This document shows, one piece after another, positions 36,686 to 59,357 of a stretch of 64,000 nt of DNA. The notes below the pieces were generated by a model. It did not search any database. It saw only the letters and a program-made list of their open reading frames with translations, and had not been told where the DNA came from. The DNA comes from Qipengyuania pacifica (GTDB taxonomy: Bacteria; Pseudomonadota; Alphaproteobacteria; Sphingomonadales; Sphingomonadaceae), in contig NZ_JAHWXO010000008.1 of assembly GCF_019857205.1 (NCBI RefSeq), positions 1-64,000 of the forward strand, given 5' to 3'. Position 1 is the stretch's first letter. Every line of letters starts with the position of its first letter. The position numbers and the translations under genes were made by a program.

Positions 36686-36960
36686 TGGACAGCGGTCAAT
36701 CTCCTCTGCCGAACGGCTTTGCTGTTCCAGTTCACCGGGCGCTGACCGAGCATATCCTGCTCGGCGGTGCGCCGCGCGGGCTCGCTATCGCCAATGCGAC
36801 GTTGGCGGGCGCAATCGGACTGGGTCTGCAGCTGTGGATCGCAGGCGCCGCGTTTTTCGCGCTCGGCCACATGGTCGCGGTCTGGGCCGCCCGGCACGAT
36901 CCTCAATTCGTCGATGTCGCGCGGCGGCATCTGCGGTTCCCCGCGCATCTGCAGGTCTGA
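36685..36960 (+). CDS. trbD: TrbD (VirB3-like)
   Basis: This 91-residue inner-membrane protein begins VPVHRALTEHILLGGAPRGLAIAN (after a short leader) with two adjacent membrane segments and ends in a short cytoplasmic tail, the VirB3 pattern. It assists TrbE assembly. The start is coupled to trbC by TGATG. Confidence 0.88.
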   Translation: MDSGQSPLPNGFAVPVHRALTEHILLGGAPRGLAIANATLAGAIGLGLQLWIAGAAFFALGHMVAVWAARHDPQFVDVARRHLRFPAHLQV

Positions 36961-36963
36961 GCC

Positions 36964-39426: not shown

Positions 39427-40169
39427 CCCGTCTAAGAATTGTCCGCAGCATCGCCATGGGCACCGCGCTCGCCATGGCGAGTACGAGCGCCTTGGTATCA
39501 TCGCCCGCACACGCCCAGTTCGGCGGAATCGTCTACGATCCGTCCAATTACGCGCAGAACGTCCTGACCGCTGCGCGCACGCTCGAGCAGATCAACAACC
39601 AGATACGCATGCTCCAGAACCAGGCGGACTCGCTCATCAACGAAGCGAGAAATCTCGAAAGCCTGCCGCTCACGCTCGTGCAGCCCTTGCAGGACCAGAT
39701 CCAGCAGACCCAGCGACTGCTGAACGAAGCCCAGCGCATCGCCTACGATGTCCGCACCATCGAGGGCGCTTTCGACCTCCACTACAAGAACGTTCCGCTC
39801 GGTGCCTCGCAGCGGGCGATGGTCGACGGCGCCGAGGCGCGCTGGCAAAACAGCGTGGCGGCCTTCGAAGATGCCCTCAAGGTCCAGGCGGGCACAGTTG
39901 CCAATATCGACGGTTCGCGCGAAGCGCTCGGCAGCCTCGTTTCGGCGAGCCAGTCCGCCACGGGTGCCTTGCAGGCAGCACAGGCTGGCAACCAGCTGCT
40001 GGCATTGCAGGCCCGCCAGCTGGCCGACCTGACCGCCACGCTCGCCGCTACTGGCAGGGCGCAGGCGCTCGATGCGGCCGAGCGCGCGGCGGCCAAGGCG
40101 CAGGCGCGCGAACAGCTGAGGCGGTTTCTCGCTATTCGTCCGCGCTATCTGCCCGGCGGATCGGACTGA
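39423..40169 (+). CDS. trbJ: TrbJ (VirB5-like)
   Basis: This 248-residue periplasmic protein has a signal peptide ending SSPAHAQ and then a long helical, Gln-rich coiled-coil region (ARTLEQINNQIRMLQNQADSL), the TrbJ/VirB5 pattern. VirB5-type proteins sit at the pilus tip or assist its assembly. It is coupled to trbE by ATGA. Confidence 0.9.
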   Translation: MTRLRIVRSIAMGTALAMASTSALVSSPAHAQFGGIVYDPSNYAQNVLTAARTLEQINNQIRMLQNQADSLINEARNLESLPLTLVQPLQDQIQQTQRLLNEAQRIAYDVRTIEGAFDLHYKNVPLGASQRAMVDGAEARWQNSVAAFEDALKVQAGTVANIDGSREALGSLVSASQSATGALQAAQAGNQLLALQARQLADLTATLAATGRAQALDAAERAAAKAQAREQLRRFLAIRPRYLPGGSD

Positions 40170-40175
40170 TCCGCG

Positions 40176-40502
40176 ATGGACACCAAGCTCCTCGCGCGCA
40201 CCGGTGCCGCTGTGTTCGTCGGTCTCGCCATCGCGATGACGATCGTACAGCTGCGCGAGGAGCCCGCGCCGGTGCGGCAAGCCGACCGGCGCATATGGGT
40301 GCCCGACGGCGATCCGCTGCCGGCACAGCTGAGGGTTTGCGCTCAAATGGGCGAACTGGCGCTGTCCTCGCCCGATTGCCGCGCCGCCTGGGCCGAGAAG
40401 CGCCGCCGCTTCTTCGGCGTCGATCACCCCGAGGCTTATTCCGGGATCGGCGATCGGGCGTTGCCTGGGTCCTCTTCCGGCGAAGCGCGAGGGGAGGACT
40501 GA
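40176..40502 (+). CDS. TrbK-alt, putative entry-exclusion protein
   Basis: This 108-residue protein has one N-terminal membrane segment (AAVFVGLAIAMTIVQL) and a periplasmic part with two cysteines and a CRAAWAEKRRRFFG box, typical of the TrbK-alt family between trbJ and trbL. It is thought to block entry of a second copy of the element. It replaces the lipoprotein TrbK of IncP plasmids. Confidence 0.82.
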   Translation: MDTKLLARTGAAVFVGLAIAMTIVQLREEPAPVRQADRRIWVPDGDPLPAQLRVCAQMGELALSSPDCRAAWAEKRRRFFGVDHPEAYSGIGDRALPGSSSGEARGED

Positions 40503-40503
40503 C

Positions 40504-41817
40504 ATGGGCGGCACGGGCGTCGTCGATCGCTTTCTGGCGATCTTCTCGCAATATATCGACAGCGGCTTCGGGCTGCTTTCGGGCGAAGTGGCGTTCATCG
40601 CGACCACGCTGATCGTGATCGATGTCACGTTGGCGGCCCTGTTCTGGAGCTGGGGCGCGAACGACGACATCATCGCCCGGCTCGTCAAGAAGACGCTCTT
40701 TGTCGGGATCTTTGCCTACATCATCGGCAACTGGAGCGCGCTCGCCAACATCGTGTTCAACAGCTTTGCCGGGCTAGGCCTGAAGGCGAGCGGCTCGGGG
40801 CTCGGCGCGGGCGATCTGTTGCAGCCGGGAAGGGTGGCGCAGGTCGGCATCGATGCCGCCTGGCCGCTCCTCGAATCGATTGCCGATTTGATGGGCTATG
40901 TCGGCTTCTTCGAGAATTTTCTGCAGATCATCATCCTGCTTGTCGCCTGGGCGATTGTTATCATCGCCTTCTTCATTCTCTCCATCCAGCTGTTCGTCAC
41001 CCTGATCGAGTTCAAGCTGACGACCTTGGCGGGTTTCGTGCTCATTCCCTTTGGCCTGTTCGGCAAGACCGCTTTCCTCGCCGAACGCGTGCTCGGCAAT
41101 GTGGTCTCGTCGGGGATCAAGGTGCTCGTTCTTGCCGTCATCATCGGCATCGGTTCGACGCTCTTCGCCGAATTCACCGGCGCCATCCCCGGCGAGCCGA
41201 CCATCGAGGATGCGCTTGCCATCGTGCTCGCCAGCCTCACCCTACTCGGTCTCGGTATTTTTGGGCCAGGCATTGCCAATGGCATAGTTGCGGGCGGTCC
41301 GCAGCTCGGCGCAGGCGCTGCCGCAGGCACCGCGCTTCTGGCAAGCGGCGCTGCGGTCGGCGGCGTGGCCGGTGCCAAGCTCGCTGGCGGCGCGGTCGCC
41401 AGTGCAGCCTCTTCCGTCGCGCAAGGCACCTCACGCGCCGCCGGAGGTGCGACCATGGCCTATGCGACCGGTTCGGCGGGCAAGAGCGGCGGCGCCGCAG
41501 TTGCGGGCGGAATGGCGGGTGTTGGCCGCGCAGCAGGGGGAGCGGCAATGTCTCCGCTGCGCAAGGCGGCAGACAGCGCCAGGAGCAATTTCCGCGAGGG
41601 CGCGCGTGCATCGGTCGGGAATATGGGTGGGCGCATCTTGCCCGCTTCCGGTGCATCGTCACCAGATCCGGAACAGACAAACGGCCCGCCAGCCTGGGCG
41701 CGGTCCATGAAGCACAGGCAGAGCCTTGGCCATTCGGCCTCGCTTGCCGCGCACACCGTGCGTGCCGGCGACGGCTCCGGCGCAGGCGCTTCCATCGACA
41801 CCAAAGAGAAGGATTAG
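40504..41817 (+). CDS. trbL: TrbL (VirB6-like) channel protein
   Basis: This 437-residue polytopic inner-membrane protein has about six membrane segments in residues 25-265 and a Gly/Ala/Ser-rich cytoplasmic tail, as in TrbL. It forms part of the inner-membrane channel. The gene starts two bases after trbK-alt and is followed six bases on by trbF. Confidence 0.9.
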   Translation: MGGTGVVDRFLAIFSQYIDSGFGLLSGEVAFIATTLIVIDVTLAALFWSWGANDDIIARLVKKTLFVGIFAYIIGNWSALANIVFNSFAGLGLKASGSGLGAGDLLQPGRVAQVGIDAAWPLLESIADLMGYVGFFENFLQIIILLVAWAIVIIAFFILSIQLFVTLIEFKLTTLAGFVLIPFGLFGKTAFLAERVLGNVVSSGIKVLVLAVIIGIGSTLFAEFTGAIPGEPTIEDALAIVLASLTLLGLGIFGPGIANGIVAGGPQLGAGAAAGTALLASGAAVGGVAGAKLAGGAVASAASSVAQGTSRAAGGATMAYATGSAGKSGGAAVAGGMAGVGRAAGGAAMSPLRKAADSARSNFREGARASVGNMGGRILPASGASSPDPEQTNGPPAWARSMKHRQSLGHSASLAAHTVRAGDGSGAGASIDTKEKD

Positions 41818-41823
41818 CTTCCA

Positions 41824-42504
41824 ATGTTCAAACGGCCTTCGATCCGGTACGCAAAGACGCCTCAAGCAGAGACGCCCTACCAGCGCGCGGCGCAGGTCTG
41901 GGACGAGCGCATCGGCTCGGCCCGCGTCCAGGCAAAGAGCTGGCGTTATGCCTTTTTCGGCGCGCTCGGCCTGTCCGCCGTGCTGACCGGCGGTCTCCTG
42001 TGGCAGAATGCACGCGGCACCATCGTTCCATGGGTGGTCGAGGTCGACAGGCTGGGCGAGGCCCGCACCGTTGCTCCCGCTGCCGCGGATTTCGAGCCGA
42101 CCGATCCGCAAATCGCCTTCCACCTTGCCCGCTTTATTGAGCATGTCCGCGCCATCCCCGACGATCCTATTGTGGTGCGCGAGAACTGGCTCAGAGCCTA
42201 CCAGTTCGCCAGCGACAAGGGTGCCTTGGCGCTCAACGATTATGCGCGGGCCAACGACCCGTTCGCGAACATTGGCCGCGAACAGGTGGCGGTCGATGTC
42301 ACCAGCGTGATCCGCGCCTCGCCGCGCAGCTTCCGCGTGGCCTGGGTCGAGCGGCGCTACCGCGACGGCGCGCTCGCTGAAACCACTCGCTGGACCGCCA
42401 TTCTCGGCGTTGCCGTCCAGCCTCCCCGAACACCCGACGCGCTCACCAGCAATCCGCTCGGAATCTTCGTCACATCGATCAACTGGTCAAAGGAGCTTGG
42501 CTGA
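41824..42504 (+). CDS. trbF: TrbF (VirB8-like)
   Basis: This 226-residue bitopic protein has a cytoplasmic N-terminus (TPYQRAAQVWDERIGSARVQAKSWR), one membrane segment (about residues 42-60) and a VirB8-like periplasmic domain. It scaffolds the inner-membrane complex. Its stop overlaps the trbG start by one base (TGATG). Confidence 0.9.
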   Translation: MFKRPSIRYAKTPQAETPYQRAAQVWDERIGSARVQAKSWRYAFFGALGLSAVLTGGLLWQNARGTIVPWVVEVDRLGEARTVAPAAADFEPTDPQIAFHLARFIEHVRAIPDDPIVVRENWLRAYQFASDKGALALNDYARANDPFANIGREQVAVDVTSVIRASPRSFRVAWVERRYRDGALAETTRWTAILGVAVQPPRTPDALTSNPLGIFVTSINWSKELG

Positions 42505-43493
42505 TGACCCACCTACTTGCATTCTTCCGTCCGGCGCTGCTCGCAGCCGGCCTTCTGCTCTTTGCCGGGTCGCCGGCAGTCGCGACGCCTGCTCCGCAGG
42601 CACAGGCCGCATCGCGCGCGATCGCGGCCATCGGCATCTCCGATGCATCCCGCCTTGTTCAGGCCCTTGCATATGCCACCACTCCCTCGCGGCAGGCCTC
42701 CCCCACCGCCGCGCGCCGCTCCCCTGCCTCTGACCCCGAGGGGCATGTGGGAGCGGCGAATGAGGCCGCCAGGATCGAACCGGACAATGCAGGATTCGAC
42801 AATGCCATCCAGCGCTATGCCTATCGCGAAGGTGCATTGTTCCAGGTCTACGCAAAGCCCGGGCAAGTAACCGACATCGCCTTGCAGGAAGGCGAAACGC
42901 TGGTTGGCCCCGGACCGGTCGCTGCGGGTGATACCGTACGCTGGATGATCGGCGACACGCTGAGCGGCTCGGGAGCAACGCAGCGGGTTCATATCCTCAT
43001 CAAACCGACGCGGCCCGATATCGCCACCAATCTGGTCATCAATACCGACCGCCGCACCTACCACATCGAACTGCGCGCCAACCCGAACATCTATATGGCC
43101 TCGGTCAGCTGGTCCTATCCGGCAGACGAACTGATCGCGCTGCGCCGCGAAGAAGAGCGAGCGGTACGAGCCGCACCGGTCACCGAGGGGTTCACTCTGG
43201 AGGCGCTCAATTTCGATTACCGCATCTCGGGAGATGAGCCCGGCTGGCGGCCCATTCGCGTCTTCGACGACGGACGACGGACCCTGGTCGAGTTTCCACC
43301 CGACATCGCCCGGGGCGAAATGCCCCCATTCTTCGTGGTGGGCGCCGATGGCGCAGCCGAGCTGGTCAATTACCGGGTCTCCGGGCGCTATCTCATCATC
43401 GACCGTCTCTTCCACAAGGCCGAACTGCGCCTCGGTGCCGGTCGCAGACAGGTCCGCGTGAAGATTGAAAACCGCAAGCGGGGCCGGTCGTGA
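42504..43493 (+). CDS. trbG: TrbG (VirB9-like)
   Basis: This 329-residue periplasmic/outer-membrane protein has a signal peptide (ending about AVATPAPQAQA), a Pro-rich linker and a VirB9/CagX domain (TNLVINTDRRTYHIELRAN, YMASVSWSYP, ENFDYRISG-like box). It forms the outer-membrane core complex with TrbI. Confidence 0.9.
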   Translation: MTHLLAFFRPALLAAGLLLFAGSPAVATPAPQAQAASRAIAAIGISDASRLVQALAYATTPSRQASPTAARRSPASDPEGHVGAANEAARIEPDNAGFDNAIQRYAYREGALFQVYAKPGQVTDIALQEGETLVGPGPVAAGDTVRWMIGDTLSGSGATQRVHILIKPTRPDIATNLVINTDRRTYHIELRANPNIYMASVSWSYPADELIALRREEERAVRAAPVTEGFTLEALNFDYRISGDEPGWRPIRVFDDGRRTLVEFPPDIARGEMPPFFVVGADGAAELVNYRVSGRYLIIDRLFHKAELRLGAGRRQVRVKIENRKRGRS

Positions 43494-44668
43494 ACGAGGA
43501 AAGCAAGACCGAGCCGCCACCCGATGCCGAAAGTATCGTTCAATTGCGCGGGGAAGGGCTGCGCGTGGTCAGGCTGTCGCGCAAGGCTATCGGCATTGCC
43601 AGCGCCGCGGGTCTGACCGTCCTTGGCGGTATATTGCTCTACGGCCTGCAGCCGCCCTCACAGGACAGCGGCGAAGAGCTGGTGAACACCGACGGGATCG
43701 CTGTGGCAGACGGGCTTGCCGCAGCCCCGGCGGACTATTCCCAGGTTCCGAGGTTAGGGCCACCGCTGCCGGGCGATCTCGGTCAACCGATCCTCGAGGC
43801 GCAGGATCGCGGTGCTATTGCCGCGCTGCCCCCTGTCGGCGCGTCGCCTCCGGTCCCGCCCCAGCGGGCGGCGCCGAGCCCTGAAGAAATAGAGGGCGAA
43901 CGCCTGGAACAGGAACGCGAGGCGGCGCGCGGCAGCCGCCTGTTTTTCGGCGGCGGGACACAAGCTGCCAGTTCCGGTCCGGCAGCTTCGGGGACTGGGC
44001 CACAACCGGCAGTACCATTTCAGCCCTCCGTCTCGACCGCGCGGGCAAGTTTTCTCCAACAGCCTGCCGAGACGCGGACAGCGTCCGTGCAGCGGCTTGA
44101 GGCGGTGCCATCTGGCGCGCTGCTTCAGGCCGGGTCGATCATTCCGGCAGCGCTGATCACCGGCATCCGCTCAGACCAGCCCGGCCTCGTGACCGCGCAG
44201 GTTACCGAGAATGTCTATGACAGCCTGACCGGGCGGCACCTTCTGATCCCGCAGGGTGCGCGCCTGATCGGTGAGTACGAATCCGATGTTGGGTTCGGGC
44301 AACGCCGGGTGCTGCTGGCCTGGAACAGGCTCGTCCTGCCCGATGGTCGCTCGATTGTGCTGGATCGTCAGCCAGTCGCCGATCCGTCGGGCTATGCCGG
44401 ACTGGAGGACGGCGTCGATTACCATTGGGGCGGTGTCGTCAAGGCTGCGCTCGTTTCCACTTTGCTCGGGATTGGCGGCGAACTCGGCGCAGGCGGAGAT
44501 GATGATCTGATCCGCGCTGTTCGCCGCGGCAGCCAGGACAGCATTAATCGGGCGGGCGAGCAGGTCGTTGCACGCGAGCTTAATATCCGCCCGACGCTGA
44601 CCATTCGGCCCGGCTTTCCCGTACGCGTTCTGGTGACGCGCGATATTGTGCTGGAGGGTGGGGCATGA
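43490..44668 (+). CDS. trbI: TrbI (VirB10-like)
   Basis: This 392-residue protein has a short cytoplasmic N-terminus, one membrane segment (about residues 37-55), a Pro-rich periplasmic linker and a VirB10 C-terminal domain (AGSIIPAALITGIRSDQPG, LLIPQGARLIGEYESDVGFGQRRVLLAWNRLVLPDG is spread over residues about 255-290). It spans both membranes and senses ATPase energy. It overlaps trbG and the DUF2274 gene by four bases each. Confidence 0.92.
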   Translation: MNEESKTEPPPDAESIVQLRGEGLRVVRLSRKAIGIASAAGLTVLGGILLYGLQPPSQDSGEELVNTDGIAVADGLAAAPADYSQVPRLGPPLPGDLGQPILEAQDRGAIAALPPVGASPPVPPQRAAPSPEEIEGERLEQEREAARGSRLFFGGGTQAASSGPAASGTGPQPAVPFQPSVSTARASFLQQPAETRTASVQRLEAVPSGALLQAGSIIPAALITGIRSDQPGLVTAQVTENVYDSLTGRHLLIPQGARLIGEYESDVGFGQRRVLLAWNRLVLPDGRSIVLDRQPVADPSGYAGLEDGVDYHWGGVVKAALVSTLLGIGGELGAGGDDDLIRAVRRGSQDSINRAGEQVVARELNIRPTLTIRPGFPVRVLVTRDIVLEGGA

Positions 44669-44901
44669 CCCGGCTCAAGCTCTCCGACATCGCCGATGGC
44701 AAGCCCGTCAAGCTGACGATCGAGGTCCCTGCGCGGCTCCATCGCCGGCTCGTCGAATATGGGGTTGTCCTCAATGGCGGGGTATCAGAGGGTGCGCCTG
44801 TGCCTGAGCTGCTTATTCCGCCGATGATCGAGCGCTTCGTCGCAGGCGACCGGGATTTTGCCAAGGCACGCAGAGGATCGCGCGCACTATCCAAACAATA
44901 A
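44665..44901 (+). CDS. DUF2274 family protein
   Basis: This 78-residue protein (MTRLKLSDIADGKPVKLTIEVPA, LLIPPMIERFVAGDRDFAKARR split across its length) is a DUF2274 protein, found as the last gene of trb operons in alphaproteobacteria. A ribbon-helix-helix-like fold and regulatory role have been suggested by form only. It marks the end of the transfer block. Confidence 0.88.
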   Translation: MTRLKLSDIADGKPVKLTIEVPARLHRRLVEYGVVLNGGVSEGAPVPELLIPPMIERFVAGDRDFAKARRGSRALSKQ

Positions 44902-45239
44902 GCACCTTCAATATCGGAACTTTTTCTGGTTCTTCCAAGCCATAATTTAATACAAATTGCGCCAATAGGTAGAATTGCGCTGTCTCAGCAGGCATGATTG
45001 GCTTTATCGTGAAGAAGGGAACTCAGGTTCCTCGCGACCGGGTTGCGATGCGCATGTCCAGGCGTTCCAGCTAAAGGCGTCGCTGCACTTGCCAACGGGT
45101 GCTTCCATCGCCCGGTCGTACTTCGCGATCCCCAGCTCTATGTGTTTATAATACCATTATAAGTTGGCCTGATCTGTTGGCTTACTTCAAATTCGATGTT
45201 GCGACATTTGGAGTCGCAGTCGAACCAGAGGAGTGACCA
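44902..45239 (+). promoter_or_regulatory. Promoter region of the lasso operon with inverted repeat
   Basis: No gene is supported in these 338 bases between the trb operon and the lasso precursor. A perfect inverted repeat TTATAATACCATTATAA (45146-45162) lies 78 bases before the precursor start and may be an operator or contain a promoter core. An AGAGGAG ribosome binding site sits about ten bases before the ATG at 45240. Confidence 0.5.
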
Positions 45240-45377
45240 ATGAAGGATCTCGAAACACGTGAAGGCGAGATGATCGATCTCGGAAAGGCGTCGGTCGAAA
45301 CAAAGGGAGCGGGCATCGTCTTCGCAGACGATAGCGGCGGTCAGCGTAATGCGGTGGCCGGAACTCTCGAAGACTGA
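45240..45377 (+). CDS. Lasso peptide precursor
   Basis: This 45-codon gene encodes a leader of 22 residues ending LGKASVETK and a 23-residue core. The leader ending matches astexin-type precursors (ASxET-R/K before the core), with the required Thr at the position before last. The core begins GAGIVFADD, so a Gly1-Asp9 (or Asp8) macrolactam ring can form, and has a 14-residue tail that ends GTLED. The DDSG-GQ segment recalls the LDSVSGQ of astexins 2 and 3. AGAGGAG provides the ribosome binding site. The B and C genes follow on the same strand. The peptide sequence is not one I know. Confidence 0.9.
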   Translation: MKDLETREGEMIDLGKASVETKGAGIVFADDSGGQRNAVAGTLED

Positions 45378-45385
45378 CCTGGATT

Positions 45386-45412
45386 GGGGCGCGCGTCGGT
45401 GACCCGCGCCCC
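45386..45412 (+). promoter_or_regulatory. Hairpin between lasso genes A and B
   Basis: GGGGCGCG (45386-45393) and CGCGCCCC (45405-45412) form a perfect eight-base stem with an 11-base loop. No T-run follows, so it is not an intrinsic terminator. It may protect the short precursor message or limit read-through into B and C, giving more precursor than enzymes. Confidence 0.6.
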
Positions 45413-45432
45413 GATACTCTCGGCTGCGCCCG

Positions 45433-46050
45433 ATGATCGACCCCGACAATGCGACAACCGCCTGGTGTAACACTGGCGACAATTTCGTCTTTCTCGATCT
45501 GCAGCGAGACCGATATTTTCGTCTTTCTCCCGAGGCCGAAAAAGCTTGGCAGCAGGAACGGACCGCGAGCGGAGCACTCGACTGGCATCAGCCGCCAGAT
45601 TTCCCCCGCCCGAATAATTGGCGCTTTCCCAAATTATCATCTCCGGCGCGACACACAGGCGAGTTCCGACTGTCGAAAGTTGCCAAGGCGATATGGGTGC
45701 AGAAGCGCGTCGAGCGTCGGCTTTCCCACACCCCTTTCCTCTCCGTTCTGAATGATGTCCGACGCGCGCAAATTCGCATTGAAACCGACATCGAAGAGTT
45801 GAGCGACGTGGCCAACGATACCATCAGGGCCTTCGAGTATTCAAAGCTCCTGCGCACCGCGGCGGATCGATGCCTTGCCCGTTCGATCGCCCTCGCAGGT
45901 TGTCTCGCGGCAACGGGCGATCAATGCCAGGTCGTTCTCGGCGTAACATCTTTGCCGTTCAGTGCGCATTGCTGGGCCCAGAAAGGCGATGTCGTACTCA
46001 ACGACACGCACGAGGAGGTCCTGCGCTACACGCCGATCCTCGTCATATAA
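45433..46050 (+). CDS. Lasso peptide B protein (RRE fused to leader protease)
   Basis: This 205-residue protein fuses a PqqD-like RiPP recognition element (residues about 1-80: TGDNFVFLDLQRDRYFRLSPEAE) to a transglutaminase-like cysteine protease (residues about 85-205). Catalytic residues are Cys147 (ADRCLARS), His179 (FSAHCWAQ) and Asp191 (VLNDTHEEVL). It binds the leader peptide and removes it before cyclisation. The ATG at 45433 lies 55 bases after the precursor stop; its stop overlaps the C gene start by one base (TAATG). Confidence 0.9.
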   Translation: MIDPDNATTAWCNTGDNFVFLDLQRDRYFRLSPEAEKAWQQERTASGALDWHQPPDFPRPNNWRFPKLSSPARHTGEFRLSKVAKAIWVQKRVERRLSHTPFLSVLNDVRRAQIRIETDIEELSDVANDTIRAFEYSKLLRTAADRCLARSIALAGCLAATGDQCQVVLGVTSLPFSAHCWAQKGDVVLNDTHEEVLRYTPILVI

Positions 46051-47774
46051 TGCGCGTGCGTTTCGCCCTCGCGCTGCCTCGAACCCAAAGCACTGTAAGA
46101 GTGTTTGCGGATGCGGCGTCTCCAGAGGCGATCCTGACAAATCGCCCAACACTATGGATAGACGAGTGCACGCCCACAGTGACGCTGGCTAACCATGGCC
46201 GCGTGCTCGGCGTGCTGTTCGACAAATCAACCGGATCCACAAGCCTCGAACCCGGGCTGCACGTGCCGCAGCAATCCAGTGCACAGGATGTCGCGGAGTT
46301 CCTGATCAAGCAATATTGGGGGGCTTATGTGGCGATCCTCCATGACCCAGGTGACGGACCTGCGGCAATCCTTGTCGATCCGTCGGGGTTCTTACCGGTC
46401 TATCGTTACGAGGGTCGTGACCATATCATTCTCACGACCGATCCAGCATTGTTTTCGCTGCGCCCTTCCTACACGGACATTGGTGTTCATTTACTGCGTC
46501 CCGAACTTCGCCAAGCGAGTACATGCCTTATCGATGTGGACGAAATTCCCCCGGGTTCGATAAGTCCGTTGCGACCAATGCGGTCTGCGCCGCTCCAGCT
46601 TTGGAAGGCTGCCGACCACTTCCCAGTTTCGGTCCCGCACTTCGAAGACGCGACTGCGGTACTGCGCGAAGTATCTCGAAGTGTCCTGAAAAGCTGGTCC
46701 GGTGTATTCGGTCAGACGGTTGTGGCAGCGTCAGGTGGGGTCGATTCCTCGCTGATTTGCGCAGCGCTTGCCGAAGCCGATGCGACCTTCGATTGTGTCA
46801 CCGTGGGGACTGCAGATCGCAGCGGGGATGAACGGCCCTACGCCAGAGCAGTTGCGGAAAAACTGGGCGTGCAATGTCTCTTCCGGACGTTCGATCCCAC
46901 TCGCTTTGATCCTGACGGTTCCGCTTCGGGAAACATCCCCAGGCCAGCTCGTCGGGCATTTCTCAAAACACTCGATGGAGCGCTCGAAAGCGCGCGAGAG
47001 GAAGTCCGCGCGGCGGTGGTGATGGACGGCAATTTCGGAGACAACCTCTTCTGTCTCCTCCATTCTGCCGCGCCTGTTGCCGACCATCTGCGCACTGAAG
47101 GTTTGAAGGCCGGTTCAATTGCAACATTGCTTGATATGTGTCGCGTCACCGATTGCAGCATCGCTACCATGGTGGCAGCGACGGTTGGCCGCCTTCGCAA
47201 TCGCGAGGGCGGCGATCCCTGGCCGCCCGATATCCGCCTTCTCAATCCCGATCTGGTCCCTGCTGACCCAAAGCCCCTGACGGTTTGGCCTCACTGCGGA
47301 TCCGGACGCCGATCGGGGAGCCACGATCATTTACGGCTCTTGATGCATGCACAAAACCATGTGCACGGTGTCACGGGAGACCTGCGCCGGTTCTCCCCAC
47401 TCGCCAGCCAGCCGCTTGTCGAATTCTGTCTCTCTGTTCCCACCTGGCTCTGGGCCACGGGCGGTCGGAATCGCGCAGTTGCCAGAGCGGCGTACTCGGA
47501 CACTCTACCTCCCGCTATCGTTGCTCGGACGTCCAAGGCCGGTCCTGACAGCTATATCCGGGGCGCTTTTGTAGCTCACCGTAGCCGAATCCGCAGCCGG
47601 TTGCTCGATGGTCTGCTTGCCGCACACAATCTTCTCGACGTGCCCGCATTGGAAGTCGCCCTGCGGGTCGACGAGTCCAAAGACGACTTCCTGATAGATC
47701 GCGTCTTCGACCTTCTCGAGGCCGAAAACTGGGCACGCCTATGGCACGAGCACGGGAGTATCAGAACAGCGTAG
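46050..47774 (+). CDS. Lasso peptide C protein (asparagine synthetase-like cyclase)
   Basis: This 574-residue protein has an N-terminal glutaminase-like domain lacking the catalytic Cys and an ATP-PPase domain with the PP-loop ASGGVDSSLI (Ser228 onward). It activates the ring Asp of the core by adenylation and forms the macrolactam with Gly1. The start is coupled to the B gene. Its last 36 bases overlap the end of the convergent isopeptidase gene, so simultaneous expression of both could cause transcriptional interference. Confidence 0.92.
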   Translation: MRVRFALALPRTQSTVRVFADAASPEAILTNRPTLWIDECTPTVTLANHGRVLGVLFDKSTGSTSLEPGLHVPQQSSAQDVAEFLIKQYWGAYVAILHDPGDGPAAILVDPSGFLPVYRYEGRDHIILTTDPALFSLRPSYTDIGVHLLRPELRQASTCLIDVDEIPPGSISPLRPMRSAPLQLWKAADHFPVSVPHFEDATAVLREVSRSVLKSWSGVFGQTVVAASGGVDSSLICAALAEADATFDCVTVGTADRSGDERPYARAVAEKLGVQCLFRTFDPTRFDPDGSASGNIPRPARRAFLKTLDGALESAREEVRAAVVMDGNFGDNLFCLLHSAAPVADHLRTEGLKAGSIATLLDMCRVTDCSIATMVAATVGRLRNREGGDPWPPDIRLLNPDLVPADPKPLTVWPHCGSGRRSGSHDHLRLLMHAQNHVHGVTGDLRRFSPLASQPLVEFCLSVPTWLWATGGRNRAVARAAYSDTLPPAIVARTSKAGPDSYIRGAFVAHRSRIRSRLLDGLLAAHNLLDVPALEVALRVDESKDDFLIDRVFDLLEAENWARLWHEHGSIRTA

Positions 47775-49889
47775 CTCGCTTCGCATCGGTGCCCCTTCCA
47801 TGGCTAGCCAGCGCTCGTACTGAGCATCCTTTCCCGGCGTACAGTTCCGCTCGTTGTTGAGCCAGAATCCGAACCATTCGAGATTACGTTCGTAAATCGC
47901 GCGCCGATGCGCAGGCTGCCATTTGTAATGCGTTTCGTCCGGAAAGACCCTCAGCTCTATCGCCTTGTCGCGGTTTGTGAAGGCTTCAACGACATCGAGC
48001 CCGCCTTCGTATTCGCTGTCCGCAGCCTGGATCAGTATGGGAGTGTCTATTGCGCTGGCGTTTGCCAGCAGCGAGATTGGTTGCCAGAATCCTTCGTCGT
48101 CGCTTTCGAAATAGCGATAGCCCATAGCGCGAAAGTAGTCCGCGAAACGCGGTCCCGCAGCGAGTGGCTGAGCGGTCATGTCCTGGCAGCAGGTTCCGAA
48201 CGTTGCGACCTTGAACAGGTCGGAATTGATGAGCGCGAACTGGACGGTCGCACCGGCATCGCTGAAACCGTCGATCCCCAGGCGGTCGGGATCGACGGCG
48301 CCGGTAGCGATTGCCATGTCGATCGCCTCTTCGAGGGTGGCAAAGACATGCCGTCGATCCTCCCACGGATCGGCAAGAAGTGTGCGTGTCTCGATCTCGT
48401 TGCGCGCCTCGGAGGCCGCCGGGAGAAGGCCGGGGCGCTGGAAGCTCAGTACTGCGAAGCCGTGCGCGGCCAGGGGATATATCGGGACCTCGTCGCCCGT
48501 ACCTCCCCGAAGGAAACCATGACTGGAATATTGCACCACAACCATGGGGTGCTTTTGCCCTTCTTCTCGCCCGGGCGGGAGGACAAGGTCGGCAAAGCTC
48601 TCGATTCCATAGGTATTGCGGAAGCGTAACCTTCGGACTTCTCCAAAGTCCTTGTTTCGCAGTCTGGCGTTGGGATCATAAATCACCCGTTCGGTTCCGC
48701 TGCGCGTGTCGATAGCGACGAGGCGGCGGGGTTGAGTGGATGCTTCCTGGCCACAGACCAGTTCATATCTCAGGGTCACGCAGCCAATCAGCAAACCCTC
48801 GAAACCGAATATGCGGCGGGGAGCGCGGTCGTCCGCCTCCCAACGCAGCAAAGCAGTTTCGCCGCGCGCCCACCCGGTTCTCTGTTGAAGGATCAAAGTG
48901 CCGCCTTCATTCGACCACCACATATCCTGAACGCCGTTACACACTGCGCTTTCGCAGATCCTGCGTTGCCCATCCGGACCGACCATCACCACGTGGGTCG
49001 GGCTGACAATGCGGTCGGGGAAATCCGATTCGAGCCACGCCGAGCGGCCTCCGGACCCCGGTCGGTAAGCTTGTGCATTAGCAGGTGCCTGAGGAGGCAG
49101 GTCGGGTGCCAGCAGGGCTCTTTCAGCTTCGCTCGCGGCCCTGCGCGATCCGTCGCGCAAGTTGACGAACGTATAGATCCGAGCGAGCGGTCCAGACGCA
49201 ATCGGATGATCCGCGAACTGCGGCGAAAACCGCTCGTCGAAGAGATAGCCGCTTAGACCTTCTTCGCCGATATCGCTCATCGCGTCCCGCAAGCCTGGAC
49301 GAGTGATGACGACCAAGCCGCGTCCGTCCTCGGTCCAGGCAAAGTCGTCGACGTCGTCGGCCATTGCCGTGACCTGGGTGGGAAGTTTTTCGCCAGAAGG
49401 ATCGACGATCCAAACCTGGGTTGTCGGGCCTTCGCGGCGGAGATAGGCGATGCGATTTCCCGAAGGCGACCACCGAGGCGCATTGGCTACATCCCACCCT
49501 GCGCGCACGACCGAAAAATCGCGCAGTGCGAAATCCGCGTGCAGGTAGGCGCCGCCGCGAGCAACCTCCAGCACCTCCCCGGAACCCGAAGCGGAAACGA
49601 TGAGCAGCCGCTGACAATAGGCATTGGTTCGCGGATTCGCCCGCTTGACCACGAATGCAATTCGATCTCCGCTTGGCGAGATACCCACTGAACGCGCATT
49701 GTTTTCAGCGATCGCCGGCCCAATGTCCGCTACCGAGGCCAAATCGTCGATGCCGACTCGCCGATCCGTCCCATCAAGACTGCCTAGTTCCATAAAGTCT
49801 GCGCATGGATCCGTGTCTGTTGTTTCTAGGATCGGGGAGGGTACAATCGGTTGAACCGCCGCTGCCAGAGCAAGCACTACTGTCACCAA
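47739..49889 (-). CDS. Atxe2-like lasso peptide isopeptidase
   Basis: This 716-residue S9-family protein has a signal peptide, a beta-propeller (YLRREGPTTQVWIVDPSG and similar blades) and a C-terminal hydrolase with nucleophile Ser543 in IDGFSDAG. Candidate Asp and His lie in QAADSEYEGG and FPDETHYKW. Atxe2-type isopeptidases linearise imported lasso peptides in sphingomonads. The start is a GTG overlapping the receptor stop by seven bases. As sequenced the receptor is frameshifted, so translational coupling from it may be lost. It converges on the cyclase gene. Confidence 0.88.
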   Translation of the reverse strand: MVTVVLALAAAVQPIVPSPILETTDTDPCADFMELGSLDGTDRRVGIDDLASVADIGPAIAENNARSVGISPSGDRIAFVVKRANPRTNAYCQRLLIVSASGSGEVLEVARGGAYLHADFALRDFSVVRAGWDVANAPRWSPSGNRIAYLRREGPTTQVWIVDPSGEKLPTQVTAMADDVDDFAWTEDGRGLVVITRPGLRDAMSDIGEEGLSGYLFDERFSPQFADHPIASGPLARIYTFVNLRDGSRRAASEAERALLAPDLPPQAPANAQAYRPGSGGRSAWLESDFPDRIVSPTHVVMVGPDGQRRICESAVCNGVQDMWWSNEGGTLILQQRTGWARGETALLRWEADDRAPRRIFGFEGLLIGCVTLRYELVCGQEASTQPRRLVAIDTRSGTERVIYDPNARLRNKDFGEVRRLRFRNTYGIESFADLVLPPGREEGQKHPMVVVQYSSHGFLRGGTGDEVPIYPLAAHGFAVLSFQRPGLLPAASEARNEIETRTLLADPWEDRRHVFATLEEAIDMAIATGAVDPDRLGIDGFSDAGATVQFALINSDLFKVATFGTCCQDMTAQPLAAGPRFADYFRAMGYRYFESDDEGFWQPISLLANASAIDTPILIQAADSEYEGGLDVVEAFTNRDKAIELRVFPDETHYKWQPAHRRAIYERNLEWFGFWLNNERNCTPGKDAQYERWLAMEGAPMRSELRCSDTPVLVP

Positions 49890-52236
49890 TGCCTCCGGAT
49901 GCCGAATGCGATGAAACGACCGATCGGCGAATAATTGGTTGAATCATACGGCGTATCGTAGGGTCCGAGCTGACCGATCTCTCGAGGCTGTTCATTGAAA
50001 AGATTCTGTGCAGTCAGCGATATTTCGAGACCTGGGTCCCGGCCTTCTCCTCGAACGAGGGTATACGATACGCCGATATCGACAGTTGCAGTTGGTGCGA
50101 GTCGGCGGATCTCATCGAAGCGGCGGTCTTCGAGCCCCCCGGTATAGTTGAGAGCAAGGTTGGCGGTCAGTGGGCCTGTTACGAACCGCGCCGTGCTGCG
50201 CACCCGCAGCTTTGCGGGGTTGAAGATTGTCCCCGCAAGCTGGGTTGCCGGAAGCTCCGCTGTGATCCGCTGTTCACTGTCGATCCAGCTGCCGGCGATC
50301 TCGAGACCGAGCGACCGTCCCTCGCCAAGAGCCTGATCCCAAGTTAGCCGAGCATCGATACCTTTGAGCGCCCACGCCGCCACATTGGTATTCCGGTTGT
50401 CTGCCACAGCGACAACGCTGGCAGGATCGTAGGGCGCGCCGGTAAAATTGGCGAGGCCGAACTGCGCACTTCCAATAAGTGCCGCTAGGCTCGCAGGATC
50501 CGGCATAAAGTCGATCAGGCTGGCATATCCCGGATCGCCGAATGCGGCCAGAATGGACCCTGAAATCGGGCCGGTCACGCGATCGGTGTACCGGATATCG
50601 TACCAGGATGCGGAGAAGGTAAGCTCAGGAAGTGAAGGGGGCTGCAGCTCGAGACCCGCCGTCCAGCTGCGGGCCCGTTCGGGGCCGACATCGGGATTGC
50701 CCCCGGCAACCAACAGTATCGTATCCGTTCCGCTGCCCGCCCCGACGATCGAAGCAGGGAGCAGGACCGTCTCATAAAGATATACTGCTGATACAGGGTC
50801 GGCGCCTTGAACGAGCGCGACCAGCTGCCGCTCAGTGTCAAACCATCGACTGGCGAATAGATGACGCCAACTCGGGGGGTGGCGAGTTGGTCGAGTCCCG
50901 GATAATCCTCGTATCTTACCGCTGTGGAAATTGTGAATTCGTCCAGACCGGGACGCGCGTTTCGTCGAGCGACGAACGGCAGATAGAGTTCCGCATACCC
51001 GAAGCGGGCTCGGCGCGTGATGTCAAAGGCGGAATCGTAATTCGCGTCCTTACGCGCATAGTCGAGGCGGTTGTTTCGGAAGCCGGCTCCAATTGCGAGG
51101 CGGGCGTCCCCTCCCGGCAGGTCGAACAGCGGACCTTCGGCCCCCGCCTCCAGAGTCGCGATTTCGTTGAAGTATCGGCCTTGCGCTAGATTCGGTTCTG
51201 CGCCTTGCCTGACGATTGTCGTTCTGAAACGGCTCTGGTCTCGCCCATATACCCCCGAAATCTTGACCTGCCAGTCCCCCGCCAGATCGATCTCCATGGA
51301 CGGTGAGATCGCGTAGCCCTCAAGGCGAGGATCGCGCGAGATGCGGAAGACGGGTGCCCCGTTCGTGTCACTCGAGCGCCGCCTTGAGTAAAAGCCATCG
51401 ACGGCGATGCGGACAGCGTTCGATATCTCCTGATGGGCCGCAAGCGTCACGGCATGACGCTGCATCTTGGGATAGAGAGTTACCTGGGGATCCAGCGATT
51501 GCGTGTAGCTTCGCTGATCAGCAATGATGTCGGAATTGTTTGCGAAGTCGTAGGCGAGCATGACACCGCCTCCGTCCCAGATCGTGCCACCAACCAGATC
51601 GAATTGTTGACGGAAATAGCCGCCGTCAGTGCTGGCGCCGAGCTGCCCGGAGGTCGTCAATCCCTCGAAATCGCGACGCAGAACGACGTTGATTACACCG
51701 CCGACAGCGTCCGAGCCGTACAGGGCCGACGCACCATCGGGCAGGACTTCGACCCGGTCCACGGCAGCGAGCGGGATGGCAGAGATATCGACCCCTTGGT
51801 ACGCCGAATTGTAGGGAACACGGTGTCCGTTGATGAGCGTCAGGGTCGCATCGGGTCCCAGGCCGCGCAGGTCCGGGCTTGACGCCGAATTCACATTATC
51901 GTTCCCGAGGCCGGCTCCGGATCCAACTCCAGGGTTCTGGCCCCCAGCGAAGTTTTGAGGCAACGAGCGAATTGCTTCTCCCAGGTCTACCTGGCCTGCC
52001 TCGACAATTGTCTCTCGATCGAGTGCGATCACCTCGCCGACCACCCGGGCACCCCGAATGCGCGTTCCAGTGACCACGATCGCAGCATCATTCTCGTCTG
52101 AAGTATCTGTGCCAACTTCGGTGGTATCGTGCTCGTCCTCTTGTCCGGGCGCTTCTTGGGCGAAAAGCGGTGGAGCTGCGCCAAAAAGCGCGCTCCCGGC
52201 GAGCAGGATGGAAATTGTGCGAATGCTCAATGACAT
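49883..52236 (-). pseudogene. TonB-dependent receptor, frameshifted
   Basis: Read in one frame, residues 1 to about 485 give a signal peptide, TonB box (DAAIVVTGTRIRGAR), plug and first barrel strands up to SFKAPTLYQQ; the frame then continues as unrelated sequence and stops at 50575. The rest of the barrel (TDTILLVAGGNPDVG to FIAFGIRRHW) is in another frame. Comparison with the paralogue at 11488 places a one-base loss at about 50781-50790. Unlike the paralogue it lacks an STN domain. It should import the lasso peptide for the isopeptidase. A real mutation and a sequencing error cannot be told apart here. Confidence 0.8.
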
Positions 52237-52318: not shown

Positions 52319-52936
52319 TTAAATTCCGCTTGAGATCCTGCTGGGATTCTCAGGTTCGCAGTTGTGGCCGAGCGCCTGTCGCAAATGCGCCAGAGCTTTC
52401 ATCATGTAATAGTCGACCGTCGGCAGTGCGATGCCGAGTTCGATATGTATCTCTCGGTAGGATTTCTTCTCGAAGCGGTTCATCGCGAAGATACGCGCGC
52501 ACTTTTCGGGGAGCTCTGCGAGCGCGATTTCCAGCGCTTGCCGGGTTTCGTGGACATGCACAGCATCTTCTTGCGCCGCGCGGCTTGGCGCGTCTGAGTT
52601 CTCCAGAAGTGGCTGGGTCCTGACCCGGCACTTTTGCCGCCGCGCCTCGTCCACGAGCAAGTTGAATGCAATCCGCCTCAGAAAGCCTGCCGGATTGACG
52701 AGTTTCGTTAGCTGCTTGCTGGTCGCTGCACGCAGAAACACGTCCTGTGCCAGGTCGCGAGCGCGTTCGGAGTCCACGCGGCGCGCAAGATATGCGATCA
52801 GTCCAGCCCGTTCCTCGCGGTAGAGGGCATCGAGTGTGCGGCGGCGGCCGACCGTTCGGCTTACCTTTGCAGCGCAATATGCGGGGCCCACGGACTGGGG
52901 GGGGTAGTGCCGAATTTCGGCGACAATTTGAGTCAT
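52319..52936 (-). CDS. ECF sigma factor of the lasso uptake unit
   Basis: This 205-residue sigma-70 family protein has region 2 (about residues 35-95, YREERAGLIAYLARRVDSERARDLAQDVFLRA in two parts) and region 4 (LPEKCARIFAMNRFEKKSYREIHIELGIALPTVDYYM). FecI-like factors control TonB receptor genes; this one is transcribed towards the receptor and isopeptidase. No FecR-like partner is present, and the receptor has no STN domain, so the usual surface-signalling route is incomplete. The start at 52936 (MTQIVAEIRH) avoids a Pro/Gly-rich extension. Confidence 0.8.
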   Translation of the reverse strand: MTQIVAEIRHYPPQSVGPAYCAAKVSRTVGRRRTLDALYREERAGLIAYLARRVDSERARDLAQDVFLRAATSKQLTKLVNPAGFLRRIAFNLLVDEARRQKCRVRTQPLLENSDAPSRAAQEDAVHVHETRQALEIALAELPEKCARIFAMNRFEKKSYREIHIELGIALPTVDYYMMKALAHLRQALGHNCEPENPSRISSGI

Positions 52937-53343
52937 GCTTCGAGCTTGGAGGCGGCCGCAACCTGAGTTCGCCGTGGCGAACTGCGTGCGGGTTCCAGGT
53001 CTGTGCCGCCGTCCGGGGCCTGGTTTGTGCCCCTTGATCGGTTCGGCCGCCGGGCCTGCGATGGACCGGCGTGCATGATGTCCGGCGGAAATATCCACGC
53101 GGACGGTGCCAGAATATCAATCCACGCGCCGTCAATCTGCCCAACATAGGAGTGGCTTGCAAGAGGCAATTGGAGCCATTTTGGACCCGCCCGTGGCAGC
53201 GGTCGTCGCCTTCGCTAAGAACGCCAGGGTTTGACGAACATCGGATCGAACATGCCCAATATTGGGGAGGCGGCCCCCTTGGTCTTGGAGTGTCGGCGCG
53301 GTGCTGGCGCCTCTAGCGCATTCGGCGAGAAAGGAGGTGCTTC
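52937..53343 (+). promoter_or_regulatory. Control region upstream of the FseA-like gene
   Basis: I support no gene in these 407 bases. They contain the promoters of the minus-strand sigma gene and of the fseA-like gene. A perfect 12-base palindrome CCCAATATTGGG (53255-53266) lies 78 bases before the ATG at 53344, and a near relative (CCCAACATAGG) occurs at about 53138-53149. An AAAGGAGGTG site at 53330-53339 precedes the start. Confidence 0.5.
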
Positions 53344-54124
53344 ATGGCTCGACCATTTGACAGCAACGACCGAACTGGCGGATACGACTTTTCGGATTTC
53401 GCGCAGGAGTTCTTGCGCCGCAATTCCGCTTACCGGCAACAATACGCCCGGATTGCGAGCGCGAGCGGTTTCGACGTGCATTCCCCAGCTTGCCGTCGAA
53501 TGGCGCGTTCATGGGGCCTTGAATTTCCCGATTGATCCCGAGCTTTCAGCTCGCAGCCATCCGGCGATCTGGCAAGCCGGAGAAAACCCCAATGTTGTAA
53601 TTCTTAGCGGTAGCGGCGCAGTGGCGGCGCGCGCAGCGTGCGACCTGATCGCCAAGCGAACGAGCAATGCGGGAGATCATCTGGTCCTCGCCGGTGGTGG
53701 CGCTCGCCATCGGTTGCTCGTTATGGCCTCCGCCCGGTTGGGTGGAGACACTTATCTGATCCCTCAAGACCAGTCGGTTCCGATCAGGCTAGCGGCGCTC
53801 GATGCGTTTCACTGCTGCGTCGCTGGCTCCGCTGTGCCCACCAAGCGATACCCGTTGCGGCCCACCACCTATCAGTCCCAACGCCTCCGCTTGCTGCTTA
53901 CCATACTCGATACTCTGGGCCGAGCGCATGAGGGTGTCACCCTCCGAGAGATTGCGGAAACCCTCGTCTATCGCGGATTGTCTGCGCAACGCGCCATAGA
54001 CTGGAAATCGTCATCGCAACGCCGACAGACCCAGCGTCTCATCGCCGAGGCACGGAGGATGGCATCTCACGGCTATCTCGGCCTGCTGCGTCAAAACCGG
54101 CTCCGACCTTTTCAAACGCACTGA
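53344..54124 (+). CDS. fseA: FseA-like excision activator made by +1 frameshift
   Basis: The first frame (53344-53535, 63 codons) encodes a DUF6499 domain (FSDFAQEFLRRNSAYRQQYARI, then RRMARSWGLEFP) and ends in TTT CCC GAT TGA. The DUF2285 domain (IDPELSARSHPAIWQAG to HGYLGLLRQNRLRPF) continues in the +1 frame to 54124. Skipping one base after CCC joins them as WGLEFP-IDPEL, the order found in single-chain family members. The second frame has no usable start codon of its own. ICEMlSymR7A makes FseA in this way by programmed frameshifting to activate rdfS and excision. A plain mutation is the alternative. Confidence 0.75.
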
Positions 54125-54307
54125 ATGCACTATGGTTTTTCTTGGGCAAGCCGCTGAATTCTGTGGTGCGCCCGGATTGGATCCAGACCTTCAGGGTCGC
54201 AACTGCAACTGCTGGAACAGGTGGAATGGAACCCTCTGATCAGGCACCGAGCAGGCGGTCGGGTGGCGGCGTGTTGGATTGCGTGCTGCCGATCGAACGG
54301 CAGGTCT

Positions 54308-55060
54308 ATGTACGCATATCTCGCGGAGGAATTCGCAACTGAACTTATCAATGTCCGTTCGGACACTGAACTCGACGGCGCCCTTAAACAGGTTTCCCGG
54401 CGCCTTGGCTTCGACCATTTCGCGCTTAGCCTGGAGATGCGTTCGACATCGTGCGAGGCACCGGGCCTGCTATTGCACGACTATCCCGACGAATGGGCGA
54501 AAGTCTATATCGCCTTCGACCTCGCAGGGCAGGATCCGGTGCGAAGAGCCTGCGACAAGACCATCATCGGTTTCGCCTGGGACTGGATTGACGAACTCGT
54601 CCCTCTCACGCGCGGCGACCGTCAAATGCTCAATGTCGGCCGGGAATGCGGAATTGGCAATGGTTATACTGTTCCGCGGCATTTGCCCGGGATAGGGCGC
54701 GGCACCTGCACCTTTGCTGTTCGACCCGAGCGAGAACTGCCCCGACGGCGCTTCGCCGTCGCGGAAATGATCGGGACGCTGGCTTTGAGCTGTGCGCTGG
54801 GCCTGAGTTCAGAAAAGTTCGATGAGAAGGTCCCTTCCCTGACCGATCGGCAGCGGGAGTGTCTGCTTTGGGTTGCAAGAGGGAAGACTGCAGCTGAAAC
54901 GGCCATGATACTCGAAATCAGCACCGAAACCGTCATTCAGCATCTTAAGATGGCCCGCGAGCGCTACCAGGTCCATTGTAAACAGTCCCTCGTCGTCGCG
55001 GCGCTGTTCGACGGGTTGATCGGGTTTGCCGACATCATCCGTTGGCGGGACACAGGCTAG
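54308..55060 (+). CDS. LuxR-family quorum-sensing regulator
   Basis: This 250-residue protein has an N-terminal AHL-binding domain (residues about 20-160, with DYPDEWAKVYIAFDLAGQD in two parts and DPVRRAC, including conserved Trp and Asp) and a C-terminal LuxR helix-turn-helix (LTDRQRECLLWVARGKTAAETAMILEIS). It follows the fseA-like gene on the same strand, as a TraR-type activator of conjugative transfer would. The start at 54308 is chosen by family length; an in-frame ATG at 54221 has a closer AGGTGG but adds an unmatched extension. The likely AHL synthase is at 62618. Confidence 0.85.
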   Translation: MYAYLAEEFATELINVRSDTELDGALKQVSRRLGFDHFALSLEMRSTSCEAPGLLLHDYPDEWAKVYIAFDLAGQDPVRRACDKTIIGFAWDWIDELVPLTRGDRQMLNVGRECGIGNGYTVPRHLPGIGRGTCTFAVRPERELPRRRFAVAEMIGTLALSCALGLSSEKFDEKVPSLTDRQRECLLWVARGKTAAETAMILEISTETVIQHLKMARERYQVHCKQSLVVAALFDGLIGFADIIRWRDTG

Positions 55061-55173: not shown

Positions 55174-55188
55174 TCATTGGAGTGAGCG

Positions 55189-55997: not shown

Positions 55998-56006
55998 GGT
56001 TACCAA

Positions 56007-57574: not shown

Positions 57575-57586
57575 TGCGGATGTGCC

Positions 57587-59356: not shown

Positions 59357-59357
59357 C

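Follow-up and report, generated by a model that had tools for sequence, protein, structure and literature searches.

Gene content of the locus

This work concerns a lasso peptide locus in the first 64,000 nucleotides of contig NZ_JAHWXO010000008.1 of Qipengyuania pacifica (assembly GCF_019857205.1), a stretch of DNA that was analysed at its full length and is called the window here. Family models and conserved catalytic residues identify three genes (A, B, and C) at 45240-47774 as a real lasso peptide gene cluster, and genes for an isopeptidase (E), a TonB-dependent receptor, and a sigma factor follow on the opposite strand. This isopeptidase-type lasso system is very probably an exchangeable cassette on a trb-type conjugative element of Erythrobacteraceae/Sphingomonadaceae. 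The cassette, the RNA element in front of it, and the sigma factor gene are laid out as follows.

45034..45119, + strand: structured RNA element of 86 nt, with three helices and a three-way junction, recognised by covariation; it ends 120 nt before the start of A
45240..45377, + strand: lasso precursor A, 45 aa, leader 1-22 and core 23-45 (NF033522, PF24178, alignment)
45433..46050, + strand: B, transglutaminase-like leader peptidase with a conserved N-terminal part of ~80 aa (NF033537, PF13471)
46050..47774, + strand: C, Asn-synthetase-like lasso cyclase (PF00733); its start overlaps the B stop by one base
47739..49889, - strand: E, AtxE2-type lasso isopeptidase (NF033523), convergent with C with a 36-bp overlap
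49883..52236, - strand: TonB-dependent receptor (PF07715, PF00593) in two overlapping frames, 50575-52236 and 49883-50713
52319..53098, - strand: extracytoplasmic function (ECF) sigma factor of the FecI type (profile searches), 82 bp from the receptor start

Precursor and predicted product

The open reading frame (ORF) of A encodes a leader that ends in ASVETK, with Thr at position -2, and a core of 23 residues, GAGIVFADDSGGQRNAVAGTLED. In profile searches, A exceeded the cut-offs of NCBIfam NF033522 (33 bits) and Pfam PF24178 (27 bits) with 45.1 bits (E 6.7e-12) and 47.1 bits (E 2.3e-12), respectively, scores that lie far above chance for this predicted precursor, and it was the only PF24178 match in the window's own genome. 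A sequence-only reading had proposed a 45-codon precursor with this leader and core length, which is borne out by the ORF and by the two family models. Its description as unlisted holds for the sequence and not for the family, as both curated models recognise it.

The precursor was aligned with those of eight relatives (L058 enters with a truncated tail and four surplus residues), and Leu14-Gly15, Ala17-Ser18, Glu20-Thr21-Lys22, Gly23, Asp30, Gly34, and Gly41 were invariant in the nine sequences. The marks of the benenodin/subterisin family, namely Thr at -2, Gly at core position 1, and Asp or Glu at core positions 7-9, are represented by T21, G23, and D30, each constant in 9/9. By comparing the possible ring acceptors, Asp30 (core position 8) is constant, and core position 9 is D, A, V, or L. 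Thus, it is most likely that Gly1 is joined to Asp8, which would leave 15 residues outside the ring. The sequence-only reading had offered Asp9 or Asp8 with a tail of 14 residues; its second choice is favoured, and Asp9 is rejected because core position 9 varies among relatives. In benenodin-1 and subterisin, the ring closes at residue 8. The computed monoisotopic mass of the core is 2219.045 Da in the linear form and 2201.035 Da less one water.

The core protein is identical between the window and L053 (the contig of L040, a Citromicrobium metagenome-assembled genome, MAG) despite three differing DNA positions within the core, which is evidence of purifying selection. Among the relatives read, this core is shared only by L039 and L040/G377. 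The string GAGIVFADD was not found in the literature searched, in line with the sequence-only reading, which knew of no described lasso peptide of this sequence; an identical core occurs in the Citromicrobium MAG. Sequence search gave no PDB chain similar to A (E<=10) or to C (E<=0.01). Judged by its motifs, A is a fresh sequence within the known benenodin/subterisin lasso family, with which it shares the leader IDLG, Thr at -2, Gly1, and the acidic core position 8; its core is not in the papers searched.

Maturation enzymes, isopeptidase, and receptor

B scored 57.2 bits against the lasso B2 model NF033537 (cut-off 33), and its Cys147 and His179 are constant in 13/13 aligned sequences, so the protease proposed earlier is upheld. 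Its N-terminal ~80 aa (L21, D22, D26, R27, and Y28 conserved; AlphaFold model of B alone, pLDDT 38) are probably a precursor peptide recognition element (RRE); profile searches gave no match of an RRE/PqqD model in B. C scored 68.8 bits against the Asn_synthase model PF00733 (cut-off 21), and its PP-loop S228-G-G-x-D232-S233, D331, and K496 are constant in 11/11 aligned sequences, in agreement with the earlier claim of a cyclase with all catalytic residues. A longer ORF that would start C at 45870 was rejected because the region matching homologs begins at 46050. Some C homologs were flagged for in-frame stops, which are confined to the last 8 codons of the match (G128, G313, and G260 checked) and therefore do not indicate damage.

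The isopeptidase scored 711.6 bits against NF033523 (cut-off 400). It aligns with 5txc/5txe over residues 50-704 at an E-value of about 1e-139, and the Ser that is mutated to Ala in 5txe is Ser in E. In the same alignment, the Asp and His of the triad are presumably also kept. With an AtxE2-type E and a TonB receptor beside it, and with the sigma factor gene, the locus is by its gene content an isopeptidase-type lasso cluster, and no ATP-binding cassette (ABC) transporter was seen at it. The sequence-only reading had called the cluster complete with A, B, and C, which is not assured, since the isopeptidase, receptor, and sigma factor genes were missing from its account and the receptor is split in the window copy. 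The unusual features of the locus, namely the mobile-element setting, allelic exchange, quorum-sensing genes, and structured RNA, are not part of that account either.

The receptor is a single 811-codon frame in L040/L053 and a stop-free, single frame in 6/6 relatives checked. Nucleotide alignment places the break in the window at a short T-run whose length differs by one base; the split may be genuine or may stem from a sequencing error. Only 82 bp lie between the sigma factor and receptor genes, so there is no room for FecR between them, and the sigma factor stands alone at the window locus rather than in a sigma/anti-sigma pair. Among 14 relatives, the genomes with the best C homologs, one has a FecR match (L063). 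Since the distant FecR that the window does encode (at 14791) also escaped the FecR query from Novosphingobium ES2-1, homology search by itself is a weak test here, and the 82-bp gap is the stronger evidence.

A structured RNA element

The element in front of A has helices at 2-9/79-86, 14-19/45-50, and 53-59/64-70 (numbering of alignment A2), and its loop AUGUCCAGGC...GCUAAAG is almost invariant. In 12 sequences, 95.2% of the cells pair, and the covariation is 0.271 as compared with 0.165 (standard deviation 0.016) after shuffling and at most 0.087 after sliding. In 27 model-fitted rows, which include those of L100-L106, 94.5% pair, double changes occur in 19/21 pairs, and the covariation is 0.586 as compared with 0.187, and at most 0.115 slid; for 32 model-fitted rows, the values are 93.5%, 17/21, 0.520, 0.237, and at most 0.156, although fitted alignments lean towards the structure. 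A second model (R2) was built without L100-L106. The single-sequence fold of the window element is not remarkable (z -1.63), so the case for an RNA rests on covariation. Rfam 15 gave 0 matches at E<=10 for 501 bases and 0 at gathering level for the whole window, and no such RNA was described among the best-ranked literature matches.

The element is present by pattern in 13/14 relatives (L064 is the exception), and it was also found in 7/7 distant clusters (L076-L082) and in 15/20 further lasso loci, two of them only once the stretch was extended, as well as in both plasmid clusters read (L108, L109), which were found through the element itself. It was not found in G287, G085, G163, G201, and G331, of which G331 is cut by a contig end, and G287, G163, and G201 are also without a matched sigma gene. 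Four whole cluster-free genomes (G078, G146, G198, G292; 150 candidates per genome scored) and seven trb regions without the cassette gave 0 matches. The element ends about 100-133 nt before A in eight clusters whose first ORF is A. In 13/20 loci, it shares the strand of the sigma gene and is about 25-270 nt or less from the point where sigma similarity begins (the L136 sigma was judged by eye), and other positions are before A in L133, 1.7 kb from A in L140, and before RovC in G260. The short A-centred loci have it near A in 1/24, so the position before A is not the rule. Moreover, it is not lasso-specific: G384 carries it next to two LuxR genes, and G326 and G320 have it at other places as well, G326 with a second copy at a distance of 1.8 kb. 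Because one copy per cluster stands at one of two usual places, we infer that a trans-acting small RNA fits somewhat better than a riboswitch.

On sphingomonad plasmids, an element or motif match lies between sigma-70 and GGDEF genes (L107:4000-4086, L110:3001-3048), with sensor-kinase/response-regulator genes near and no lasso gene in the fetched 8 and 6 kb; from this context, it is perhaps a wider stress-related small RNA. Three tandem motif copies on a viral contig (L100) reach 30-32 bits only and were set aside, as they look like an unrelated repeat. In several clusters, 45140-45240, between the element and A, holds a conserved AT-rich stretch, TTATAAT...ATTATAA, and a second hairpin, GCGAC..GTCGC, which by eye varies yet stays paired.

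The conjugative element and its distribution

Two further features belong to the backbone of the element.

35552..44901, + strand: trb conjugation genes, left flank of the cassette (Pfam TrbC, VirB3, TrbL, VirB8, DUF2274), with TrbI at 43490 and DUF2274 at 44665
53231..54124, + strand: RovC/DUF2285-type DNA-binding protein (PF10074)

To the left of the cassette, the window holds RepA, DUF2840, a DUF3363 relaxase, TraG, the trb genes, and DUF2274, and to the right RovC/DUF2285; the names TrbE, TrbG, and TrbI are assigned by position. Trb-type integrative and conjugative elements are a known class, which shares RepA, the relaxase, TraG, the trb operon, DUF2274, and DUF2285/RovC with the window, whereas the lasso cassette placed where the trb operon ends is an addition that is not the subject of any title or abstract opening among the literature matches listed.

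The order TrbI-DUF2274-[A-B-C, E, receptor]-sigma-RovC-LuxR is found in 12/14 relatives. In one of the relatives (L065/G260), tblastn missed A, for which PF24178 gives 24.8 bits, a score below its cut-off. The two exceptions are L063, which is arranged differently, and L064 (G162), which retains the right half alone: A, B, and the beginning of C are lost, TraG, relaxase, and RepA follow directly, and E, receptor, sigma, RovC, and LuxR are kept. Among 19 places with a TrbI of at least 65% identity (the matches listed are complete down to ~45% identity), the cassette adjoins in 11, is ~8.5 kb off in one (G361), and is absent in 7, one of which (L067) breaks off 1.5 kb after DUF2274. All 6 places with TrbI of at least 90% identity hold the cassette at the same site. 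Seven relatives lie on contigs of 3.1-3.8 Mb (G283, G342, G128, G164, G162, G260, G036), which suggests that the element is integrated in the chromosome; the window's contig is 162 kb long and unplaced.

PF24178 matches were found in 67/397 genomes of the bacterial family, the window's included (65 over the cut-off), and in 0/14 control genomes, and C homologs at E<=1e-40 in 65/397. Neither was present in nine other genomes of the window's genus among those listed. The nearest copy, L039 from an uncultured Erythrobacteraceae MAG, is 99.9% identical over 3690 nt (44597-48286), and L040 (same contig as G377:C44) is 93% identical over 44407-52084. Plasmid records with a C homolog number 25, all with <60% identity, the best among the matches listed being 39.7%. 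A second lasso copy in G342 was rejected: the first 18 kb of its contig C1 are 99.4-99.8% the same as the last 19 kb with many small gaps, and the repeat (L075, L056/L092) is probably one stretch at both ends of an untrimmed circular assembly. For this reason, split frames in G342 are doubtful, and the two rows that it contributes to alignment A2 and to the LuxR counts below are not independent.

Cassette exchange and selection

By comparing the window with G283, protein identity is high on both sides of the cassette and low within it: TrbI 97, DUF2274 94, A 51, B 48, C 48, E 55, receptor 64, sigma 94, RovC 81, LuxR 99, and LuxI 100%. The same pattern is seen with G211, G128, G342, and G036, where the cassette has 44-65% and the flanks from TrbI to LuxR 81-99%; LuxI of G036 has only 68%. 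At the nucleotide level in 300-bp steps, identity to G283, G128, G342, and G036 falls from 78-100% in the outer steps to 48-75% at 44990-52189. The comparison with G377, whose contig ends left of 44390, gives the reverse: 81-98% at 44390-51889 and then 46-76%, with sigma 57, RovC 43, and LuxR 82% among the right-flank proteins. Thus, the cassette and the right flank have separate histories, and the cassette was exchanged. Three cassette alleles are found on backbones with TrbI of at least 91%.

B, C, and E are under purifying selection. Between the window and G377, the core has 3 nt and 0 aa changes, and dN/dS is about 0.33 for B, 0.23 for C, and 0.24 for E; the pair G128/G342 gives about 0.30, 0.23, and 0.24, respectively. 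Since A, B, C, E, and the receptor move and diverge together and the conjugation and regulatory genes are near constant, the alignments suggest that peptide and receptor form a matched specificity pair. Published isopeptidases are reported to act on their cognate peptides and not on the others tested (PMC9266682), which would agree with matched alleles.

Quorum-sensing genes beside the cassette

To the right of RovC, the following genes were found.

54221..55060, + strand: LuxR-type receptor of acyl-homoserine lactones (AHLs) (PF03472, PF00196)
62534..63244, + strand: LuxI (PF00765), the sole AHL synthase matched in the window's genome
63241..64000, + strand: PhyH-type dioxygenase (PF05721), continuing to about 64107 of the contig
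from about 64104, just past the window edge (L099:4105-4707): GntR-type regulator, 41% identical to the ES2-1 GntR and not directly before A

A LuxR homolog (E<=1e-40; 89 places in all) is present within 15 kb at 47/78 C places, with G342 entered twice, and about 0.9% is expected per random site. All 15 LuxR places with at least 60% identity are near a C, as compared with 10/38 below 39% identity. In 12/12 downstream regions, LuxI and PhyH follow LuxR, in 7 at once with no interval and in five after an insert of 6-8 kb; PhyH in turn is followed by GntR in all 12 regions and in the window's contig. The seven distant clusters L076-L082, which were picked because LuxR is near C, also have LuxR, LuxI, PhyH, and GntR, and 13/20 of the further lasso loci (from PF24178 matches) have LuxR, LuxI, and PhyH within the fetched stretch. 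The annotated plasmid p2 of Novosphingobium ES2-1 has the whole LuxR-LuxI-PhyH-GntR set. The adjacency of LuxI and PhyH is already known (PMC3704786, PMC4288048); among the listed titles and abstract openings of a literature search, none ties LuxI-PhyH to lasso clusters. Upstream sites inspected by eye for a lux box gave nothing convincing. The interval 55150-62400 between LuxR and LuxI encodes a glyoxalase, a low-molecular-weight phosphatase, a bile-acid-symporter family protein, a pyridine-disulphide oxidoreductase, and a heavy-metal-associated (HMA) protein, genes that look like arsenic/mercury resistance genes.

Proposed function and alternative explanations

We hypothesize the following scheme, in which the steps are drawn from gene order and known families. 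From the gene order, LuxR/LuxI probably turn the locus on in response to cell density, and GntR, the sigma factor, and the structured RNA would tune it. B would cut A before Gly1, C would link the Asp8 side chain to Gly1, and the remaining 15 residues would thread the ring. Speculatively, PhyH might hydroxylate the product (about +16 Da). The predicted product would be released from the cell, without an ABC transporter having been seen, taken back by the cognate TonB receptor, and opened by E. A further-reaching proposal, which we put forward as tentative and rather unlikely, is that a conjugative element under quorum-sensing control uses the lasso peptide, receptor, and isopeptidase as its polymorphic recognition module: carriers would release the peptide, allele-matched cells would take up and open the peptide, carriers or suitable recipients would be recognised in this way, and a new class of structured RNA would coordinate the process.

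Several observations weigh against these readings. The receptor lies in two frames in the window copy, and, as far as the gene spacing tells, there is no FecR at the locus, unlike in distant clusters. For 31/78 C places, there is no LuxR match within 15 kb, and ~7.5 kb separates LuxR from LuxI in the window. The loss of A, B, and part of C in G162 shows that the locus can decay, and seven trb regions of the same family are without the cassette, so the element does not need it. In addition, both changes in A between G128 and G342 alter an amino acid.

The strongest alternative, which we regard as quite possible though somewhat short of probable, is that the cassette is ordinary cargo, a secondary-metabolite cluster that landed beside trb, and that the identity valley records old homologous recombination with no functional meaning. 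It would account for the seven trb regions that lack the cassette and for most of the 78 C places not being beside a TrbI of at least 65% identity, and conjugative plasmids of cyanobacteria are reported with natural-product clusters (PMC8600333). It fits less well with the cassette being present at the same site, in three alleles, in all 6 places with TrbI of at least 90%, and with the purifying selection on B, C, and E.

A doubtful second alternative makes the product a narrow-spectrum bacteriocin or a siderophore-like scavenger of element carriers, with receptor and isopeptidase serving uptake or immunity. A polymorphic peptide and receptor between constant flanks would suit a toxin/immunity system, and the receptor and sigma factor resemble iron-uptake systems; however, isopeptidase-type lasso peptides are not known to be toxic. 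Isopeptidases that act on the cognate peptide only, as reported in PMC9266682, would also fit immunity, but the same source calls the function of these peptides enigmatic.

It is unlikely that the locus is decaying and that the split receptor makes the copy of the window strain non-functional. The two receptor frames and the loss of A, B, and part of C in G162 point that way, but none of the genes A, B, C, and E is broken, a second MAG (L039, whose contig ends before the receptor) carries nearly the same A, B, and C, the break in the short T-run may be a sequencing error, and a related receptor is encoded at 11488-14049. Least probable of all is that the structured element acts as single-stranded DNA, for example as a replication or transfer site: it does occur on conjugative elements and on plasmids without a lasso cluster in the fetched stretches, but many clusters outside this element, too, have it on the coding strand, either about 100-133 nt upstream of A or shortly before sigma.

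Taken by itself, the peptide adds one member to a common family (67/397 genomes), and its setting matters more. The link to LuxR/LuxI-PhyH-GntR, the allelic exchange in a conjugative element, and an RNA missing from Rfam are three handles on a function that has been called enigmatic (PMC9266682). If the proposal of communication is true, isopeptidase-type lasso peptides gain a role in mobile-element communication. Furthermore, disruption of a lasso B gene is reported to abolish phenanthrene use (PMC11006600), and phenanthrene degradation is reported to be under LuxI control (PMC7432010); the LuxI-lasso link may connect the two reports.

Relation to known clusters

The window shares A-B-C, a convergent E, a TonB receptor, a sigma factor, GntR, and the lack of an ABC transporter with the clusters of astexin (AtxE2, 5txc) and sphingocin (PMC11006600). 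In contrast to these clusters as described there, it has no FecR, its GntR, PhyH, and LuxI stand on the far side with an insert between LuxR and LuxI, and its setting is trb. The novI/novR-phyH quorum-sensing loci of sphingomonads have the same order of LuxR, LuxI, and PhyH (PMC3704786, PMC4288048), whereas here these genes accompany lasso clusters, and the word 'lasso' occurs 0 times in the main text of the two papers.

Other features of the window

At 11488-18217, the window has an orphan operon of TonB receptor-FecI-FecR-794 aa S9-like protein. The S9-like protein reached 124.6 bits against the lasso isopeptidase model, below the cut-off, and the receptor is 57-67% identical to the lasso receptors of 13/14 relatives and 49% to that of L063. 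The sole A and C match of the window genome is at 45-48 kb, despite this orphan receptor operon, and it is possible, judging from these similarities, that the operon eavesdrops on the lasso peptides of others. The S9-like protein was found in 3/397 genomes at E<=1e-60, its own included; in G303, its neighbours are likewise a receptor and FecR, next to a relaxase.

Between TraG and the trb operon, 24280-35283 is an SspABCD-PbeA/PbeC phosphorothioation-type defence island (PADLOC). A nucleotidyltransferase and a HEPN protein are encoded at 21613-22575 beside TraG, and an annotated protein of the same domains (nucleotidyltransferase/HEPN) lies just before the lasso cluster of Novosphingobium ES2-1 p2.

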